From Sabellastarte sp. h YS-2021 (lineage: Eukaryota > Annelida > Polychaeta > Sabellida > Sabellidae): a DNA stretch of 64,000 nt. Below are positions 5,320 through 44,800 of this stretch, piece after piece. The stretch covers positions 48,892,332 through 48,956,331 of the forward strand of contig OZ024938.1 in assembly GCA_964017235.1 (NCBI GenBank), in the 5' to 3' direction. Below the pieces are notes generated by a model that searched no databases, was not told the DNA's origin, and worked only from the letters and a program-made list of their open reading frames with translations. A program made the translations under genes and the position numbers. Positions within the stretch are counted from its first letter, which is position 1, and each line of letters begins with the position of its first letter.

Positions 5320-5899
5320 TGTCACGGACCTGTGAACGGAAATAAATAGGCTTGTGTCACGGAAATGTCAATACTCGCATCCATGTTTTCATTGGTGGGT
5401 TTGGAAATCACGGCAGCAGCATCACCTTTTTAATATTAATGAGAAGATATGAGTTCACGGATTTCCTGGGGTTTTCTGACAATATTTTGTAAAATGAAAG
5501 CTTCAATGAAGATCAAATACCTCAAACTCGAGAATTCACGGCAGTAGCATCAACTCATTAATATTCATGAGAAGATATGAGGTCACAAATTTCCCGGGGT
5601 TTTCTAACAATATTTTGTAAAATGGAAGCTTCAATGAAGATCAAATACCTCAAACTCAAGAATTCATGGCAGTAGCATCAACTCATTAATATTCATGAGA
5701 AGATATGAGGTCACAGATTTCCCGGGGTTTTCTAACAATATTTTGTAAAATTGAAGCTTCAATGAAGATCAAATACTTCACACTCGAGAATTCACAGCAG
5801 TAGCATCAACTCATTAATATTCATGAGAAGATATGACCATAAAATCCGGGTCCGTGACAACTTGTCACCCTATTAATTTGCGTTCACGGATCCGTGACA
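5320..5899. mobile_element. MITE with TAA target duplication and internal tandem repeat
   Basis: TAA stands at 5317-5319 and 5900-5902. The ends are TGTCACGGACCTGTGAACG and, inward from the right, TGTCACGGATCCGTGAACG (17 of 19 identical). The 3-bp TAA duplication suggests a PIF/Harbinger-type origin, though the termini differ from the element at 26263. Most of the interior is a 128-bp tandem repeat. Confidence 0.82.
5411..5838 (+). repeat. 128-bp tandem repeat inside the TAA-type MITE
   Basis: The TAATATTCATGAGAAGATAT segment recurs exactly 128 bp apart (5431, 5559, 5687, 5815), about 3.3 copies with few differences. Confidence 0.93.
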
Positions 5900-6031
5900 T
5901 AAGCCTCGCCAAATTATTAAATGCCTTAACTATGAAATTTATAATACTTGCCTGTTTGGCTGCATTTTCGTGAGTTTTCTTTGAAAACTTGTAAAAAAAT
6001 ATGCAATTGTCATACAAAATATATCTGTAAT

Positions 6032-6414
6032 TAGTGCTGGGACGATGTTTGAAGAAGTTCGATAGTTCGCTCGTTTACTGCCCCGATTTCGGAGTTCGGT
6101 TCAAACGTCTGAAAATTCGGACTTTGCAAAACGTTTAGAAATCCCCAATATCACACCACATCCCAACGGATTCTATTTTCGCCCATCTATAAAATCTGTT
6201 TCTTTTGTTGAAAATATGGCGGAATTTATTTAAAATATAGATGGATTTTATATTTTAGGTATATTTTCAACAAAGTGACAAGATATTATGTGAGATTTCT
6301 GCGTTTTAACTGGTTTTGAAAACGTTGTTTCGAAGATCGATCTAGACCGAAGTTCGCTAGCTTGTACAGACACCAAACATCGAACCCAATATTTGAAGCG
6401 ATGTCACAACACTA
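6032..6414. mobile_element. hAT-like MITE with 8-bp target duplication
   Basis: TCTGTAAT stands on both sides (6024-6031 and 6415-6422). Ends are TAGTGCTGGGACGATG and, inward from the right, TAGTGTTGTGACATCG. The interior has inverted pieces rich in TTCG. No coding capacity. Confidence 0.85.
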
Positions 6415-6719
6415 TCTGTAATCGATTGAAAACCCCTGGAAATGTTAAACAAGAGGAGAGTGCCCGTGAACGGGCACTGTGTCAGCTGACTGAGTGTTTT
6501 TGATTTGTGAAGGTGATTAGAGGACAGAATAATTATCAGGAAAAGGGCTGTACAGAAATACAGTAAATGGTAACTGAACAGCAAGTTCGAAAGAAATTCC
6601 GAAGCTGACAGAAGAAAAGGATAAAAAAGTTGTGCCCTGTAAATGGTATTATGAAGGAAAATAACAAGGTAATTGCTTAAGTGTAAAAAATAGGTTAAAA
6701 CATATTTAAAGAAATACTA

Positions 6720-7310
6720 CAAATGCAATATCCTCGTTCGACCTTGAAGAAGGGGTCCAAGGTCAAATCTAACCACACAAATACATTCCCAGCCCATGAT
6801 TTCCTATGGTTTACCATTCCAAACCTCTAGGACCAATTATAAATGAGTTATAAACACTTTTAAGCTTGGCTGTCCTCATTTGACCTTGAAGGAGGGGTCC
6901 AAAGGTCAAATCTGACCACACCAAAAGATTCCGATCCAATGATTTCCTATGGGATGGTTTACCATCCCAAATCTCTGTCACCAATAATAAGCGAGTTGTA
7001 GGCACTTTCAATTTCCGCTATCCTCATTTGACCTTGAAGGAGGGTTCCAAGGTCAAATCGGACCATATCAACAGATTCACAGCCCATGATTTCCTGTCTG
7101 TTTACCATCCCAAACCTCTGGGAAAAATAATAAGCGAGTTATAAGCACTTTTAAGTTTGGCTATCCTTATTTGACCTTGAAGGAGGGGTCATTGAAGGTC
7201 AAATCTGACCACACCAAAAGATTCCCACCCCATGATTTCCTACAGGTTGGTTTATCATCCCAAACCTCTAGGATCAATAATAAGGGAGATATAAGCACTT
7301 TTCATGACTG
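6720..7310 (+). repeat. Satellite of 138-152-bp units, 4 copies
   Basis: GACCTTGAAGGAGGGGTCC-type segments recur at 6740, 6892, 7030 and 7173, each followed by CCCATGATTTCCTA and CCCAAACCTCT. Unit length varies because of small indels. Not coding. Confidence 0.88.
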
Positions 7311-7489
7311 ACAAAAAACACCTGTGGCGGCCATCTTGTTTCTCAAAATGAGGCCAAAAATATTCCCAGACAACATTTTATGGTTATTAATATATACTGC
7401 AAACTTAAGAAAGCTAGCTATAATATTTTTTTTCATCAGAGCAGTAATGGTGAAATCTCTCTACACACTGCGGCTATCCAGTGGATACA

Positions 7490-9100
7490 ATGATTTACTC
7501 AACAGTGAGAACCTGAAAGTAGCTATTGCTCAGCTATGCCATGACATAGAGGTCTGCAATTTCACTATGTTATAGCTGACCAAAAATTCTGTGAATAACA
7601 TATTTAACAAATTACTCTAAATGTAATAGTTTTCAAGTTACAACTGATTTACTCAACAGTGAGAACCTCAAAGGAACTATTACTCAGCTATGCAATGAGC
7701 TACATGTCTGAAATTTTACTATGTTATAGCTAACCCAAAAGTAGGTGAACAAGTCAGAACAACATATTTAAGCAAACTACTGTAAATGCAATAGTTTTCA
7801 AGCTACAACTGATTTACTCAATAGTGAGAACCTGAAAATAGCTATTGCTCCACTATGCCATGAGCTATAGGTCTGTAATTTCACTATGTTATAGCTGACC
7901 CAAAAGTAGGTGAACAATATATTTTAACAAAATACTCCAAATGCAATATTTTTCAAGTTATAGCTGATTTACTCAACAGTCAGTACCTGAGAATAGCTAT
8001 TGCTCAGTTGTGCCATGAGCTATAGGTCTATAATTTCACTATGTTATAGCTGACCCAAAAGTAGCTGAATAACATATTTGCACAAATTTCTGTAAATGCA
8101 ATAGTTTTCCAATTATAACTGATTTAATCAACAGTGAGAACTTCAAAGTAGCTATTACTCAGCTATGAAATGAGCCACAGGTCTGAAACTTCACTATGTT
8201 ATAGCTGACCCCAAAATAGGTGAATAACATATTGAAACAAAATACTCTAAATGCAATAGTTTTCAAGTTATAAGTGATTTACTCAACAGTGATAACCTAA
8301 AAGTAGCTATTACTCAGCTATGCCATGAGCTACAGGTCTGAAATTTTACTATGTTATAGCTGGCCCAAAAGTAGCTGATTAACATATTTATACGAAATTC
8401 TCTAAATGCAATAGTTTTTAAGTTACAAGTGATTTTACTCATGATGGAAGTTACTGAAAAGCCCAAAAGTAGCTATTACTCACTTAGCTATTGAGACAGA
8501 CACCCAACTTACTCACCATATTGTAGCTATGAAAAAAGTAGCTGAATAACATATTTTAACAAAATGCTCTAAATGCAACACTTTTCAAGTTATAAGTGAT
8601 TTACTCAACAGTGATAACCTAAAAGTAGCTATTACTCAGCTATGCCATGAGCTACAGGTCTGAAATTTTACTATGTTATAGCTGACCCAAAAGTAGCTGA
8701 ATAACATATTTATACGAAATTCTCTAAATGCAATAGTTTTCAAGTTATAAGTGATTTACTCAACAGTGATAACCTAAAAGTAGCTATTCCTCAGCTATGC
8801 CATGAGCTACAGGTCTGAAATTTCACTATGTTATAGCTGGCCCAAAAGTAGCTGAATAACATATTTATACGAAATTCTCTAAATGCAATAGTTTTTAAGT
8901 TACAAGTGATTTTACTCATAATGGAAGTTACTGAAAAGCCCAAAAGTAGCTATTACTCACTTAGCTATTGAGACAGACACCCAACTTACTCACCATATTG
9001 TAGCTATGAAAAAAGTAGCTGAACAACATATTTTCACAAAATGCTGTAAATGCAACACTTTTGAAGTTATAAGTGATTTAGTGCATGATTTCATGAATTT
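7490..9100 (+). repeat. Satellite of about 155-165-bp units with a higher-order repeat
   Basis: About ten copies of a unit containing GATTTACTCAACAGTGA, AGCTATGCCATGAGCTA and CACTATGTTATAGCTGACCC. A variant unit with ATGGAAGTTACTGAAAAGCC recurs at about 8440 and 8918, 478 bp apart, marking a three-unit higher-order repeat. Not coding; short ORFs here are chance. Confidence 0.9.
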
Positions 9101-26077: not shown

Positions 26078-26332
26078 AAGTCAACCAGAGTACTTCTACT
26101 CCCCTAAACAGAATATCACTCTGTCATAGGTTTACCTATACGGCTAGTGCTGCTACCTATTTGTAGTCTTTGGTGAAAGGTGGCACTTGTGTACAATGCA
26201 CCTTGTCCACAGGTATGAACCGGCTTAAGATTGAACCTGAGAGCTTCTCCTGCCCAATCTAATGTGGGTGTTCCACCACACGACTAAGGCTCCCGATTAA
26301 GGGTTTTGGGGGGTCGGTTTGAAATATTTGCT

Positions 26333-26850
26333 TAGTCCCAGGCTTCCTGTAAGGATTGGTTGTGGTCGGTTGAGGCCGTGTGAAAAATCAAACATGTTTG
26401 ATATTTCACACGACTACAACCGATTCCTATTTCCCGCCGTCAACAAAATGTCCAGTCCCAGGCGTCCTCAGGCCTCCTCAGACCCAAATTTACAGAGTCG
26501 GTTGTTGTCCCAGGCGTCCTGCGACCCTTAGTCCCAGACCTCCGTAGCTTAGTCCCAGGCGGCCGGTTCTTAATCCCAGACTCAAATATGATGCGTATGA
26601 ATTTCATGCGTCTGAAAGTGAGTCGGTTTCATTAGTCCCCGGAAGCCTCAGACCATCTGCGGTGTCCTGCGACCCAAAAATCAAGGTCTGGGACTAAGAA
26701 CCGACTAAGGGTAACCGACCCTAACCGATCCAAACCGGCCTCCCCAGGACGCCTGGGACCACGCATTTTCAGTCTGCGGCGTCCTGAGGACGCCCCAGGC
26801 GGCCTGGGACTAACAACCGATTAAGAACCGACTGTTTTCCGCGCGTTGGA
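26333..26850. repeat. GC-rich subterminal repeat array, left end of Harbinger
   Basis: Variants of TCCCAGGCGTCCT, AGGCCTCC and GTCGGTT are repeated in both orientations through this stretch. The same motif set recurs at the right end. Such arrays are typical binding platforms of the element's own DNA-binding protein. A perfect palindrome, ATCAAACATGTTTGAT, lies in the left array. Confidence 0.75.
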
Positions 26851-26882
26851 AATTAAAACGAGGCAATGAGCAGGTCTGGGAC

Positions 26883-26890
26883 TATATAAG
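26883..26890 (+). promoter_or_regulatory. TATA box of the Harbinger MADF gene
   Basis: TATATAAG sits between the GC-rich subterminal array and the ORF start at 27064. Transcription would start near 26915, giving a 5' UTR of about 150 bp. This is inferred from position only. Confidence 0.55.
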
Positions 26891-27063
26891 CGACCGCGCA
26901 CACTTTGTCATTGTTACTGACTGTTTGGCTACTGAGAGACGTGTGTCACTGATTTGTAGGGGTTTTCAATTTTTATTTTACATTTTATATACTTGAGCTT
27001 AAGGCAAATTTCACAGTTAGGAGACACATTTTACTATTTTTTTATTATTTTGTCGACTGGATC

Positions 27064-28287
27064 ATGAGAAAAGAGAAAGGAAGGAAGAGAGGAAGGAAAA
27101 AGATGGATGAGAGGGAGAAGGAAAGTCAAGTAGAGGAGAGGAGTGAAGTTATTACAGAAGAAGGAAGTGAGAGGAGAGAGGAGGAGGAGATTCAGGAAGA
27201 TCCAGCTATTGGGGAAGCTGTGGCAGAAGAAGAAGAGAGGTGTGAGGAAGATCCGGAGTGCCATTCTTCAGCCAAGAGAGCCAGGGTGTGTGCCACTTTT
27301 ACAGACAGTGATGAAGTTTCCATTGTAGAATTCGTCAAGCTGCACCCTGAACTGTATGACAAGGAACATTCACGTTTCCACGACAGGAACAGAAGAGAGG
27401 CTCTCTGGGCAGAAATATCTGCAGAACTTAAGCTCCAGCCCTTTGATGTGAGAAGGTGGTTTGAGTCCCAGCGAACCCGTTATGGAAAGCTGTCTAAGCT
27501 CCAATCTGGCCAAGCCCCGAGGGAGATGACCAAGAGACAGTCCTGGGTCTACCAACAGATGGGTTTTCTTAAAACCCACATCAGAAGAAAGGGGGCCAAT
27601 AGAAGTTCAGGTTTTGAGGCCAGTCCAAATACCAGCAAGCAGGACGAATCACGTGGGTCAACTACTGACACAGAACACCTCGAGTCCAGTGTCCTGAGGG
27701 AGAGCAGTCAGTCCATCATTACATCAACACCCGTTTCAACTACAGACTCCAAGATTCTCGAACACTTTGAGCAGATGAGGACACTTATCTCAGGTTTTCT
27801 GCATCAGAAGTCAGACAGGCAGCCCTTCTTTGACTACGTGGCATCAGAGGCCGAAAAGATGACTCAAGAAGAATTTGAAGAATTAAAGGGCAAGATATTC
27901 AGAGATATCGAAAATATTAAGAGTAACCGCAGACGTCAGCCATTGCCCAGAAGATCAGCCACTGTTACCACGGAGTCCCAGAGGGTCGGCCTACTGCCAA
28001 CAACCACTCCACAGGCGTCAAGTTCCACTCAAGCAGCAGCTAGCAGCAGTTTTGTGTACTATACACCAAGCCCCATTGGCTTCAGCAACCCTACATCTGT
28101 CCTAACTGTACAGGACGAAGGGAGCAGACACAATCTGAGTGGAATCTTAAGCCAGCTACCAGATCTGACATCAACACAGATCGTCGAGCAGCCTCAGCAG
28201 CAGCAGCAGCAGCAACAACCGCAGCAGCAGCTCTTTACTATCACCACTTCAGCACCGCCTCAACAGCAGCAGCAGCCTCCTCAGTAG
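27064..28287 (+). CDS. Harbinger accessory protein with MADF and BESS-like domains
   Basis: This is a single-exon ORF of 407 residues. Residues 1-63 are highly charged: a basic KR-rich start (probable nuclear signal), then an acidic stretch. Residues 86-173 form a MADF (Myb/SANT-like) DNA-binding domain: a FVKLHPELYDK start, the central ALWAEIS tryptophan, and a second helix with VRRWFESQRTRYGK. Residues 253-287 (PFFDYV to DIENIKS) resemble a BESS protein-interaction motif. The C-terminus is Ser/Thr-rich and ends in glutamine runs coded by CAG. In known Harbinger elements a Myb-like partner binds the ends and brings the transposase into the nucleus; the same role is inferred here. A TATA-like box lies 174 bp upstream of the start. 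Because the element is intact, this is unlikely to be a host gene. Confidence 0.85.
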   Translation: MRKEKGRKRGRKKMDEREKESQVEERSEVITEEGSERREEEEIQEDPAIGEAVAEEEERCEEDPECHSSAKRARVCATFTDSDEVSIVEFVKLHPELYDKEHSRFHDRNRREALWAEISAELKLQPFDVRRWFESQRTRYGKLSKLQSGQAPREMTKRQSWVYQQMGFLKTHIRRKGANRSSGFEASPNTSKQDESRGSTTDTEHLESSVLRESSQSIITSTPVSTTDSKILEHFEQMRTLISGFLHQKSDRQPFFDYVASEAEKMTQEEFEELKGKIFRDIENIKSNRRRQPLPRRSATVTTESQRVGLLPTTTPQASSSTQAAASSSFVYYTPSPIGFSNPTSVLTVQDEGSRHNLSGILSQLPDLTSTQIVEQPQQQQQQQQPQQQLFTITTSAPPQQQQQPPQ

Positions 28288-28649
28288 CCATCCAGTCAGG
28301 GCGGGTCTTTGACCTGCCAGGCCCTTTTCAGGGCCACCAAATCTTCCAAAAACAATTATTCAGCTACGTGTTCTTCCAATTCCCCTCCCAAAACAAAAAA
28401 GTTCAGTACAAATACTTATCACAAGAAAAAAAAAAATTAAAGTCCAACACTTACACCACCCCAAACATGAAACAAATAACCCATGGTACTACACATAACC
28501 AAAAAGGCCACATAAAAAAAATATTAAAAGTAACTCCCAATATGGCCATTAATCAGCCCATTTTTAGATTAAAATCCATGGGATAGTTTAAAATCTGTAA
28601 TTGAAAAGTCCAACACTTGCACCTTCCCTAGAGTTAAAAGGCATAATTA

Positions 28650-28800
28650 CATACTTACCAACCCACAAACAGACAAACCCAATACCAAACATAACCCCCA
28701 AATAACAAACCCAGTACCAAACCTAATACCCAACTACCCCAAAAAAACCCAACCCCAGTAACCACCAACCAACAAACACCCAAACCCAAAAGTAAATAGA
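28650..28800 (-). repeat. Degenerate inverted copy of the 43-bp unit
   Basis: The A/C-rich stretch contains, on the minus strand, GTTATGTTTGGTATTGGG followed by GTTTGTCTGTTTGTGGGTTG, close to the 43-bp minisatellite unit found 400 bp away on the plus strand. It is G-poor on the plus strand. It is in inverted orientation relative to the main array. Confidence 0.6.
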
Positions 28801-29099
28801 ACCCATGCCAACGAACTGACAAACTATTTAGCAAACACAATCCCCCATTATTGAAAGCAAAACTAGTTCCATGGTTATATTTTCCAAATTTTTGTGATTA
28901 GAAATGAATATTTAAAATTGAATATTTCCATAAAAAAATTTCTGCTACAAATAAGTTTCCCAGCCATGAAAAAAGAAAAATGTTTAAATTATGATGTGGA
29001 TTTGAAAATATATAAAATAATTATTCAATTTAGGATATTATGTGTCACTTTGTGTTTCGCTTTTGTTTAACAGTGGGTTTGTCTGTTTGTTGGGTGAGT

Positions 29100-29640
29100 A
29101 AGTTGTGTTTGTCTGTTTGTCTGTCTGAACAAGTTATGTTTGGCATGGGGTTTGTCTGTTTGTCCGTCTCGACAAGTTATGTTTGGCATGGGGTTTGTCT
29201 GTTTGTCCGTCTCGACAAGTTATGTTTGGCATGGGGTTTGTCTGTTTGTCCGTCTCGACAAGTTATGTTTGGCATGGGGTTTGTCTGTTTGTCCGTCTCG
29301 ACAAGTTATGTTTGGCATGGGGTTTGTCTGTTTGTCCGTCTCGACAGGTTATGTTTGGCATGGGGTTTGTCTGTTTGTCCGTCTCAACAAGTTATGTTTG
29401 GCATGGGGTTTGTCTGTTTGTCCGTCTCGACAAGTTATGTTTGGCATGGGGTTTGTCTGTTTGTCCGTCTCGACAAGTTATGTTTGGCATGGGGTTTGTC
29501 TGTTTGTCCGTCTCGACAGGTTATGTTTGGCATGGGGTTTGTCTGTTTGTCCGTCTCAACAAGTTATGTTTGGCATGGGGTTTGTCTGTTTGTCCGTCTC
29601 AACAAGTTATGCTTGGCATGGGATTTGTCTGTTTGTCCAC
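29100..29640 (+). repeat. 43-bp minisatellite, 12 copies, inside Harbinger
   Basis: The segment TATGTTTGGCAT recurs every 43 bp from 29135 to 29608. The unit has no stop codon in any plus-strand frame, and 43 is not a multiple of 3. As a result three long overlapping ORFs (up to 202 codons) appear here; they are artefacts of the repeat and not genes. Single-base variants (GACAAG, GACAGG, CAACAAG) follow a four-unit order that is itself duplicated, implying a 172-bp block duplication. Confidence 0.95.
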
Positions 29641-29730
29641 ATAGCTGATTAATTGTTTTTGGAATATTTGGTAGTCCTGAAAAGGACTGTTATAGTTAGT
29701 CCTGAAAAGGACTGTTTACTGCAACAGGAC

Positions 29731-31038
29731 TTATATTCTGCCATCTTGCCAGGCCACTGCTCCCTCATTATTGAAGTAGTCCTTCAGGTAATCCCTCTGT
29801 CTTTTGGCCTCTCTAGCAGGGTTTCTGTCTTGGCCACCACCAGCAGCACCACCAATCAATCCACAATCACCAGGCACATCATCATCATCATCATCCCCCC
29901 CAGGCTGCTGACCAGCAGGTTGACCTTGATACTGGCTTCTGAGTATATTGTGCAGAACCACACAGGTCATGACCACTTCTCTAACTGTTTCTGGGGGTAG
30001 TTCAATGGTGGTCCTCATGACTCTAAATCTTGACACAAGGATGCCAAAAGCGTTCTCCACAACTCTCCTGCCCCTTGATATTCTGTAGTTGGCAATCCTT
30101 TCCTCCCTTGTTAACAGCCTTCTGCTATAGGGTTTCATGAGCCAGGTCTTCAGGGCAAAGGCATCATCTGCCAAAATGAAGTAGGGGACATCTCTACCAC
30201 CCTGTGTTATAGGAGCTGGGTCAGGGAAGCCTATCCTGCCATCTTCAATCCTCCTCTTCAGCTGAGAGGCATTAAATATCTGGGCATCTGAGCAAGACCC
30301 TTCTGTACCCACATCCACCCATCTGAATTTGTACTGCCCATCTACCAAGGCCAACATGACAATGGAAAAGAACCCCTTGTAGTTGTGGTAGAGGGCTCCA
30401 GAGTTCTTGGGTTTCTTCAGGGCCACATGCTTTCCATCCAGGGCTCCCAGGGCATGTGGAACATTCCACCTGATCCTGAATTCCCTTTCCAGTTCTTTCC
30501 ACTCATCTGGAGTAGTAGGACATTTGAGGTACTCTCTGGTGAACTCATCCTGGATGGCCCTGCAGACCTCTGGTAGAAACTTGGAAATGGTGGATCTGCC
30601 AACCCTGAACTGACAGGATAATGATGTGTATGACTCTCCAGTGGCCAGATATCTGATGGTGAGGGCTAACTTCTCCCCAACACTGATAGGAGCTCTGTAG
30701 TTGGTGGCCTGCCTGGCTAGACGTGGTTCCAGTCTGGTCTTCATCATTTCAAAGAATTCTGGGGTCATCCTCATGTAGTTGGTGAATCCTGGAATGTCTG
30801 TGGCATACAGATCAGCCATAATGTTGTGGTAGGCCCCCCTCTCCTCTCTCTGCAGTAGCCATGGCCTGACCCACATGTTGTGCCTTCTTCTAGGTCTCTG
30901 TATGGGTGCTGGTGGTGCTGGTGGTGGTGGTTGCTGTGCTTGACGTAAAAAATGGAAATACATGATTATTTGTAACTGAATAAAAACCAAAAAAGCCCTA
31001 AGTTGTTGTTGAATCTGTCTTCCATTAAAAGGTGGCAT
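29731..31038 (-). CDS. Harbinger transposase (HARBI1-type DDE nuclease)
   Basis: This is a single-exon ORF of 435 residues. A helix-turn-helix-like segment (GRSTISKFLPEVCRAI) is at 147-162. The DDE_Tnp_4 nuclease spans about 196-365. Likely catalytic residues are D201 in GALDGKHVALKK, D251 in SCSDAQIF and E329 in RRVVENAFG; the ADDAF motif near 290-294 is also typical. The C-terminal tail is acidic (a run of Asp at about 380-386), then basic. No stop or frameshift interrupts the domain, so it could be active. The first 30 residues are atypically hydrophobic for the family, and an internal start or a small intron near there is possible. It is convergent with the MADF gene. A TATA run lies about 46 bp upstream. 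Confidence 0.92.
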   Translation of the reverse strand: MPPFNGRQIQQQLRAFLVFIQLQIIMYFHFLRQAQQPPPPAPPAPIQRPRRRHNMWVRPWLLQREERGAYHNIMADLYATDIPGFTNYMRMTPEFFEMMKTRLEPRLARQATNYRAPISVGEKLALTIRYLATGESYTSLSCQFRVGRSTISKFLPEVCRAIQDEFTREYLKCPTTPDEWKELEREFRIRWNVPHALGALDGKHVALKKPKNSGALYHNYKGFFSIVMLALVDGQYKFRWVDVGTEGSCSDAQIFNASQLKRRIEDGRIGFPDPAPITQGGRDVPYFILADDAFALKTWLMKPYSRRLLTREERIANYRISRGRRVVENAFGILVSRFRVMRTTIELPPETVREVVMTCVVLHNILRSQYQGQPAGQQPGGDDDDDDVPGDCGLIGGAAGGGQDRNPAREAKRQRDYLKDYFNNEGAVAWQDGRI

Positions 31039-31083
31039 CCTGGTGTGTTCCTAGAAAAGCAATGATGATTAGATCGCAAATGT

Positions 31084-31095
31084 TATATATATATA
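31084..31095 (-). promoter_or_regulatory. TATA-like run upstream of the Harbinger transposase
   Basis: The alternating TA run is 46-57 bp upstream of the transposase start codon on the minus strand. It would imply a very short leader. It could equally be low-complexity sequence. Confidence 0.35.
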
Positions 31096-31129
31096 CCCAG
31101 AAAATCCAGCAACTTTGCAAAACAATAAT

Positions 31130-31480
31130 CGGGGATCGTGGTCTGGGGAGGCCTGAGGAGGCCTGAGGACGCCTGAGGACGCCGGTAGTTAATCGTGTGT
31201 TAGTCGGCTCTTAGTCCCAGGAGGCCTGAGGCGTCCTGGGACCCAGTCGGTTTGTGTCAGACAGGATCGTGGTTGAAACCGACCCGAAAACTGGCTTAGT
31301 CGGTTCTTAGTCCCAGACCAGTCGGGGACTGTCTGCGGCCGCCTGAGGCGTCCTGAGGTGTCCTGAGGCGTCCTGGGGACGATCTGTTCTTAATCCCAGA
31401 CTTCAGTACCGACCCAGTATTCCCGCCCATTTTTGTCTTTTTTCAACCGACTGTGCACAATTAAGGGTCGCCGACAGGAT
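31130..31480. repeat. GC-rich subterminal repeat array, right end of Harbinger
   Basis: Repeated GCCTGAGGACGCC, GAGGCGTCCTG and TTAGTCCCAG motifs mirror those of the left end. Pronounced CpG content contrasts with the AT-rich flank. Confidence 0.75.
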
Positions 31481-31779
31481 CGGGGCTTAATCTTTTGGTG
31501 GAACAGGGGCATAAAGGCTTGTAAACATTGTATATATAATATGAGGCAAGACGATCACATCGAATGATATAATTGCCTGTACTGATTCCTTGCCAGATCA
31601 GATCCGTAGGCATATACTATAACTACAGTTCAAATTAACAGAACCTCCTTATTTCTCATCTGACTTAATCTGTGGACGTCTTTGACTCCCATAAGTGGCA
31701 ATGTAGAGGGCCTGCATCCACTCCTGGCTGTTGAATGGGATGTACAACAACAAAGCTGGGCTCTGGGCCATCTGGGATT

Positions 31780-41800: not shown

Positions 41801-44800
41801 TTCGCTCTGGTAGAAAACTTTTATACAACATACATATGTAGATATTTGACTCTGTACATAATTGTTCTATCTTTTTTATTTATTTCCAAGTGTTTCTAAG
41901 AAAATAACTTCTTTGCTCTGGTATAAAACTTTTACACAACATATCTTTATACATATTTAATTCTGAGTGTTGTTGTAATTATATGGAGTACAGATATGTT
42001 AACAGAAATACACTTTTCTGCTCTGAGGCCAAAAAAGTTATTTCAATGTTTAAGTGTGCTACATTTTTTAATCCAATTTATTCTTTTTCAGCCAGAAATT
42101 TTGACATCGGCAAAGCAACGGAAATGTACAGAAATGTAAGTCAAATTTAAATATATTTTATGATTTGGTGGAATTTAAAACTTCATTTTTGAAAACTATT
42201 GTGATGGGTTTTAAAACAGATAACAGTACACAAATCTTAATTTTGCAGAGAAAAATCATTCTTTTAAGACAGAAAAATTATGATAATTTTTCGAGATAGT
42301 AAAACAAACTTTAATGTAGACAGCTTTTGTTATCATCTCAATATTACTGTGATGGTTTTGTCAGCCAACAACCAGGAACTAAATATAATTGGTTTTTGTT
42401 TACATAATAACTTTAAAAGTTGTGGACGGATTTACCTGACATTTTAGGAAATATCGACAATGGTACAAGGAACAGATGATTAAATTTTGACAATTGAGAT
42501 AAATTTCTAAATATACCCTCAATTTCAAGTTGATCTCCAAAGTCTGAATCTATCTCGCGTCATCTTATAAGATGTTGGATCAGCTCATTTTCCAATCCAG
42601 TTACCAAAGTTACTATTTAACCTCAAATCTAAAGGTTTCATATATAATTTAACCAGAGCCAATTTTGTTTTCAAAACTTTATCATTAATCCGAAGGCATG
42701 TCAACAGGGAAATGATGCCACATTGCAAGATACATTGGAAGAATGAAAAATAACAAACAATTTGAAGTGAAACTAAGATAGAGTGAAGCTAGTATGAGAA
42801 GTTGTAGGATGGGACTCTGTAAACTTTAATATATTTTTCTTATTTTGCCAATTTTAAGTTTTTTGTTTTAAGATCTCAATATCATTCCAGAGCATGACCT
42901 ACAGGAAGAAGATGGATGTTGACACAATTCTGACAGAGTACACACCACCAGAGGTAAATACTTTGATACATTTCAAACCTAGTGTCTGATAGGTATATCA
43001 CTGGTATGCTTGATGTAACTACATTGGATTGTATAATCTATTTAATCTCCAACTCCTACTACTATTATGTATGATTTATTTGGTGTTTTACATAATGCCT
43101 AGTACCTTTACGGTTATATTGTGATGGGTAGTTGGAAGGACAGAGGAAACTAGTACATACAGCTGGTCAAGGTTCTGTACCATTAAATGCTGACCAACAG
43201 CAAGCAACTACCAGCTTTACCACATGAGGTCAGGGCGGAATATTAACTCCGATCTCAGAGGTGGCAGGTGAGCGTGTTACCACTGCACCACCGTGATCCC
43301 TACTACCAGTATTATCCATGGACAAAAAGATAATAAATCATTTTTAATTAAATTAATGTAATGTGCTATTATAATATTTTTGTTGTATATTTATAGCTCC
43401 CCAGTCTTTTTTTCAAACATAGAGCTATGTTGTTCATTGTTTACCCATTTATCATGATTGTTGTTCCCCAGTTGTATAATTACATATGCTTGCCATTCCT
43501 CAGTTATCCACTTATTTCAAATTTGTTGTTCCTTGGCAATTGTTCAATTATGATTTTTGTTCCTCAGTTATCAATTTATTTATGATCGTCTTCCTTTGAT
43601 ATCCAGTTATTTTATTGCTGTTCCTTATAGTCATCTGTTTATGTATGATTTTTGTTACTTAGTTATCCATTCATTTTATAATTATTATTCCTTTGATATC
43701 CATTTCCTTATTGTTCTTGTTCATTAGTCACCTATATATTTGTGATTGTTGTTCCTTACCTATCTGTTTATGTATCACCGACACAATTCCAATCCCAACT
43801 TGAGCATTACAACACTAAAATAGCTTGCATGTTTCAGGTGTTACAAAAATACATGCCTGGTGGTTTTGCTGGCTTTGACAAAAAGGGCTCACCGATCCTG
43901 GTAGAACTGTTTGGATATCTGGATGCCAAAGGAATCTTGCATTCAGCCAGAAAGGCTGACATAGAAAAGTGTAAACTACAGCTGGGAGAGAATATCACAA
44001 AACTATTAGACGAACAGTCAAAAAAGGTACATTTTTTCTGTATGTAAAGTTTTAACCATAAAATGTAACAATCAAGTGTAAAATTCAGAATTATACAATT
44101 TAACCAATTGTACATTTGGCTTGATGATCTGGTGTGATAACCCTGTGAAACTCTTAGCCTGTGTGAGAAACTTTACAATCTGAAGGAACTAAACTGATTT
44201 AATCCGAAGGTCCTAGATGTAAATGATTATGAGATGTTTTTGACCATTAAGCCAATGTATTCCCTCTCAGTGGGCACATGCCTGGATGTTTAGCTGCTAA
44301 ACGTTTGTCAAGAAGTAACTGAGCCGGATGCTACTTTTGTTAGTCAGAATTAAATAATCAAAGCTTGTTTTCATTTTCTGAAACTATTTACAACAGACCA
44401 TCTAGATTGTCTAAGTGTGCTTAATGATGGTAAGTTAATTGTTTTTACAACTTTCTTTTTGTATGAAAACAACGATGAGACATAAGGAAAGTTACCTGAA
44501 TGTAGTATCTTTTCAAAAAAAATTTATCATGCATAAAGACAAATACATAACATTTCTGTCTGTATGGCGGGTATTATTTTTTTTGTCTTTTGCCTTTTTG
44601 AGTGTTAAGCTTAAATATACCACATAAGGATTAGTTTATATTTATTATCTACCAGTTTCCTTTAAAATCACGCAAAAAAATCAATATTTACCAAAACAAT
44701 AACAGGTGAAACATATCCACAGTGAGGAGCAACAGTTGATATAAAAACTGCAACTTTTTGATGTTAGATTTTTTCACTAATTCTGCATGGATTCAAATTC

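Follow-up and report, generated by a model that had tools for sequence, protein, structure and literature searches.

We identified at positions 26263–31511 of the analysed window (a 64,000-nucleotide stretch of contig C19 in a 1.79-Gb genome) a 5,249-bp element that is very probably a complete, likely autonomous PIF/Harbinger DNA transposon whose family has recently multiplied in this genome. Five observations support this reading: a two-gene structure, a TWA triplet before 92% of the family's exact 5' ends, empty sites for two sister insertions, near-identity among the sampled copies and purifying selection, between older subfamilies, on the first of the two genes, ORF1. A preliminary description of the window had proposed an intact PIF/Harbinger element whose partner protein joins a MADF domain to a BESS-like one. 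The borders it gave are exact; both frames are uninterrupted, and both ends and the flanking TAA triplets are found in the sequence, as listed here.

26260–26262, unstranded: left target-site duplication, TAA
26263–26278, plus strand: 5' terminal inverted repeat, TGTGGGTGTTCCACCA
26263–26922, plus strand: 5' subterminal region; its 10 RTCCCAG motifs, which occur in either orientation, may bind the MADF protein
26876–26889, plus strand: last 5' motif, CTGGGAC, running directly into TATATAA
27064–28287, plus strand: ORF1, 407-aa MADF protein, the presumed DNA-binding partner
27325–27570, plus strand: MADF domain (PF10545), ORF1 residues 88–169
27820–27921, plus strand: conserved, predicted-helical segment, ORF1 residues 253–286, earlier called BESS-like
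29107–29638, unstranded: 43-bp tandem array of 12.4 units between ORF1 and ORF2, varying in length among copies
29731–31038, minus strand: ORF2, 435-aa DDE transposase
29947–30441, minus strand: DDE_Tnp_4 domain, ORF2 residues 200–364
31112–31511, minus strand: 3' subterminal region holding GC-rich 10-bp repeats and 4 RTCCCAG motifs
31496–31511, minus strand: 3' terminal inverted repeat, reverse complement TGCCCCTGTTCCACCA
31512–31514, unstranded: right target-site duplication, TAA

The terminal inverted repeats are short, as is usual for PIF/Harbinger elements, and imperfect, with 12 of 16 bases matching between the ends. ORF1 reads rightward and ORF2 leftward, so that the two genes converge and face each other across the 43-bp array. 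Copies of RTCCCAG crowd the two ends of the element: 10 lie in the first 660 bp (mean 0.16 and maximum 2 in 500 mononucleotide shuffles) and 4 in the last 400 bp (mean 0.12, maximum 2 in as many shuffles), while the intervening 4,080 bp hold 2 (mean 0.75 and maximum 5 after shuffling). The innermost 5' copy adjoins TATATAA, likely the core promoter of ORF1. Because the Myb-like protein of Harbinger3_DR recognises a 9-bp subterminal motif (excerpts of PMC9710019), we take it as likely that the MADF protein binds these clusters.

ORF2 carries a full-length DDE_Tnp_4 domain (PF13359, E 2.5e-32, profile positions 1–158 of 158). Its residues D201, D291 and E328, which we take to be the catalytic candidates, are kept in the two relatives that were aligned. 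The second gene is of the Myb/SANT/MADF kind that PIF/Harbinger elements carry: ORF1 matches MADF (PF10545) at E 2.1e-11 with 44.5 bits (cut-off 22), and scores 17.4 bits against Myb_DNA-bind_5, under that profile's cut-off of 21.7. A sequence search of the PDB returned no match for ORF2 and two spurious weak ones for ORF1, and a scan of viral contigs found no ORF1 relatives. AlphaFold models of the two proteins, built from single-sequence input, reached a mean pLDDT of 46.5 and 35, too low to use. By analogy with better-studied PIF elements, the MADF protein would bind the clustered motifs near both ends, carry the transposase into the nucleus and recruit it to the DNA; the transposase would then cut at the terminal repeats and re-insert the element at TWA.

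Near-identical copies, which the preliminary description proposed to look for, are abundant. Genome-wide, 3,345 sites match the 26-base 5' end exactly, against none for a backwards-pattern control, and TWA precedes 3,078 of them (92%). With up to 3 mismatches allowed, a 45-mer taken from ORF1 has 1,019 sites and one taken from ORF2 has 2,195; neither control matched anywhere. On contig 1, an exact ORF2 site stands at the expected distance and orientation for 53 of the 59 exact ORF1 sites, 2,859–3,336 bp away. A search with the 5' 1,201 bases, in which the best 40 of 3,867 candidates were scored, brought up at least 40 near-identical copies, counting that of the window. From the 39 other copies so listed we took 20 at full length, chosen for high 5' identity, which with the window's copy makes 21. 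Pairwise divergence, gaps not counted, was 0.30% over the 5' 2.8 kb (20 copies) and 0.40% over the 3' 1.84 kb (19 copies), values that describe the youngest layer only, since the copies were selected for identity. The family is large and young and has recently multiplied.

Integrity within this sample is mixed: by an end-to-end criterion ORF1 is open in 19 of the 21 copies, ORF2 in 12 and both in 11. That at least one frame is missing in the other 10 fits a recently dead element, left intact in the window by chance after the burst had ended, while the 0.3–0.4% separating the sampled copies speaks against it; we consider such a death possible but lean away from it. The window's copy may instead still be mobile, and reads as an ordinary Harbinger with an ordinary MADF partner. 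The family seems very recently active and has thousands of ends in one genome, so insertion polymorphism should be easy to test.

Both ends were found in 19 of the 21 copies, the window's among them, and 15 of these 19 are flanked by the same TWA on both sides, the 3-bp duplication typical of PIF/Harbinger elements; one has no duplication. In the remaining three (L021, L031 and L033) TAA on the left faces TTA on the right, a mismatch at the central W that is surprising beside a divergence of 0.3%. Empty sites were sought with a single query holding seven sister insertions, each represented by 70 + 70 flanking bases joined with one TWA. Among the best 40 of 8,960 candidates, 38 cross the joined junction of L019 and 2 that of L025, at 94–96% identity, and with all 40 taken up by these two the other five flanks have no match among them. 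These matches across the joined flanks show that L019 and L025 each inserted into a repeat that was already in place, duplicating 3 bp. The empty-site check foreseen in the preliminary description was thus borne out for two sister insertions; for the window's own copy, none of the candidates (8 of 8 scored) spanned the junction of its joined flanks of 183 + 115 bases.

Selection on ORF1 was gauged between subfamilies. From the best 150 of 5,868 MADF candidates scored genome-wide, 30 frames were read; by eye, 28 belong to the window's family, many of them to diverged subfamilies of it, and the frames of L037 and L056 were uninformative. In 11 between-subfamily comparisons, ranges that omit the young copies L022 and L025 (3 changes each), dN/dS was 0.10–0.25 for the whole of ORF1, 0.06–0.14 for the MADF domain, 0.05–0.17 for residues 228–290 and 0.14–0.42 for the remainder outside these two parts. 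Judged by residues 228–290, ORF1 has a second, C-terminal region under roughly the same constraint as its MADF domain. Intact frames together with purifying selection on ORF1 recall published co-domestications (excerpts of PMC9710019), but a reading of the copy as two host genes that were domesticated from a PIF element is refuted by a copy number in the thousands, the terminal repeats, the duplicated target sites and the empty sites of sister copies, and we give it practically no weight.

What the constrained C-terminal region is bears on the second half of the preliminary description, the BESS-like part of the partner. Its MADF domain is confirmed by the profile search of the 407-residue protein, and its BESS motif is not: PF02944 gave no Pfam match up to E 10 with the whole protein or with two segments of it. 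A local BESS HMM built from 6 segments of this genome scored ORF1 at best at −0.8 bits, and at residues 132–150 instead, a value equalled by 23 of the 406 block shuffles that scored (999 made). Likewise, hhalign placed BESS at residues 131–154, away from 253–286, with a probability of 4.7%. A gapless profile of 34 columns, made from 4 BESS segments of this genome and with its register fixed after ORF1 had been inspected by eye, ranked residues 253–286 first of 374 windows with a score of 9.25, compared with 24–50 for true BESS segments left out one by one. This score was reached by 1 in 5,000 segment shuffles and by 15 in 1,000 block-shuffled proteins; among the 68 frames of at least 80 aa in the window, ORF1 included, ORF1 alone reached it, with the next two at 8.25 and 7.5. 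A recognisable BESS in the window's ORF1 is therefore rejected on the negative Pfam, local HMM and hhalign results, and a weak gapless resemblance remains.

This resemblance is a weak hint that residues 253–286 may be distantly related to BESS. The low-confidence AlphaFold model predicts helices at residues 228–245, 253–264 and 268–288, and because purifying selection acts on the C-terminal helical segment as it does on the MADF domain, this segment is a real second domain of ORF1 of uncertain kinship, probably an interaction domain. We take seriously, without favouring it, the possibility of a genuine MADF-BESS partner with a BESS too diverged for Pfam to reach. The top gapless rank, rarely matched by shuffles, the C-terminal position under selection and the Pfam BESS exon that related Harbinger elements carry downstream of their MADF exons all argue for it; the silence of Pfam, the pull of the local HMM and hhalign to another place, the distance from the scores of true BESS segments, the control frames close behind and a register set after ORF1 had been viewed argue against it.

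The related elements emerged from a genome-wide BESS search, which scored all 59 of its candidates and yielded seven places. Four of the seven (L010–L013) have, on the opposite strand and in pieces, a Harbinger transposase homologous to ORF2, and in each the BESS exon lies between the N-terminal and C-terminal exons of the transposase. At the other three, L009, L014 and L015, no Harbinger transposase was found within the 3.1-kb locus; their BESS frames are candidate host MADF-BESS genes or remnants, and L015 looks by eye like the same family as L010–L012. The MADF- and BESS-bearing Harbinger elements are located as follows.

C1:42950317-42955489: loci L066/L011/L068
C4:129240093-129245227: loci L069/L012/L070
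C6: loci L010/L071
C6: loci L067/L013

The C1 and C4 copies share 98.2% identity over 5.15 kb, and their similarity stops at the same points. Scans for terminal repeats in the C1 copy alone found nothing; its borders were set by comparison with the C4 copy. Both have the terminal repeats TGTAGAAACTTCACCT / TGTGGGAACTTCACCT, which set them apart from the window element. The C4 copy is flanked by TTA on both sides, the C1 copy by TAA and TTA, its 3' end lacking the last base.

Both the MADF and the BESS exons of these relatives exceed the Pfam cut-offs. In the C4 copy, two exons joined at GT-AG make a full MADF domain (E 1.6e-16) upstream of the BESS exon, and MADF exon 2 continues in frame into the BESS exon start. 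The C1 copy matches MADF with exon 1 at E 7.4e-9 and BESS at E 7.7e-8; for L013 the values are E 2e-7 and E 1.9e-6, and Pfam finds nothing in a 35-aa stretch of its MADF exon 2. The exons of C1, C4 and L013 follow one order: MADF 1, MADF 2, transposase 2 (opposite strand), BESS, transposase 1 (opposite strand). This arrangement suggests that the MADF and BESS exons would be spliced into one protein. All four copies are damaged. MADF exon 2 is disrupted by a frameshift in C1, by a deletion or rearrangement in the L010 copy on C6 and by a stop in L013; in C4 a frameshift lies in the BESS exon. Like the window element, these Harbingers encode the MADF partner on the strand opposite to the transposase, which is 44–45% identical to ORF2 over 223–243 aa (L011 and L013); unlike it, they have a Pfam BESS exon, introns and interdigitated exons.

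Placed beside described systems, the element in the window is an ordinary representative of a well-known superfamily. The PIF/Harbinger elements of Drosophila, Anopheles and Lepidoptera and zebrafish Harbinger3_DR share with it two genes, a transposase of about 400–500 aa and a Myb/SANT/MADF protein of about 300–400 aa, together with a 3-bp target duplication, short terminal repeats and a partner that binds a subterminal motif, a binding that is putative in the window element (excerpts of PMC9710019 and PMC2836001). Judged by those descriptions, the window element is set apart by its own terminal sequence, its own RTCCCAG clusters, the 43-bp array between convergent genes and a high recent copy number. 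In rice and zebrafish Harbinger elements both proteins are needed for transposition, and excision is precise (excerpts of PMC2836001 and PMC9710019). A Harbinger burst in marine animals is likewise described for Harbinger-Snek and its relatives of fish, bivalves and echinoderms, bivalve members included (excerpts of PMC8437027), a likeness drawn from description, and 2,470 Harbinger/Tourist elements are listed for one hard clam assembly (PMC8905726).

The architecture had been put forward as better known from host transcription factors and as bearing on how such host genes arose. A MADF partner is standard in animal PIF elements, for which it has been published (excerpts of PMC9710019, PMC11893794 and PMC10027918). 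The word BESS is absent from PMC9710019, and the literature on MADF, BESS and transposons, represented chiefly by listings and passages, including those of PMC11893794, PMC5021357 and PMC5982830, yielded no description of BESS in a Harbinger element. The Drosophila Adf-1 and MADF-BESS factors (Stonewall, Dip3, CP60), as partial sources describe them, have the N-terminal MADF domain in common with the window's ORF1, which differs from them in being transposon-borne and in having no recognisable BESS. The evolutionary idea is strengthened by other Harbingers in the same genome that have both MADF and BESS exons, and it rests better on those relatives, which bear directly on the origin of MADF-BESS transcription factors, than on the window copy. 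We offer as a tentative and rather unlikely reading that Harbingers natively carry MADF-BESS partners, that the C-terminal helices in the window would be a strongly diverged BESS, and that animal MADF-BESS factors would be captured partners, interaction domain included. If true, these transcription factors would have arrived with their BESS, as opposed to MADF domains gaining one in the host.

Two further features of the window lie outside the element. An open frame at 43697–44047, which by eye resembles a SEC14/CRAL-TRIO exon, may belong to a host gene near the insertion, and positions 5404–9080 hold several long-period tandem arrays with units of 128, 143, 155, 310 and 477 bp.
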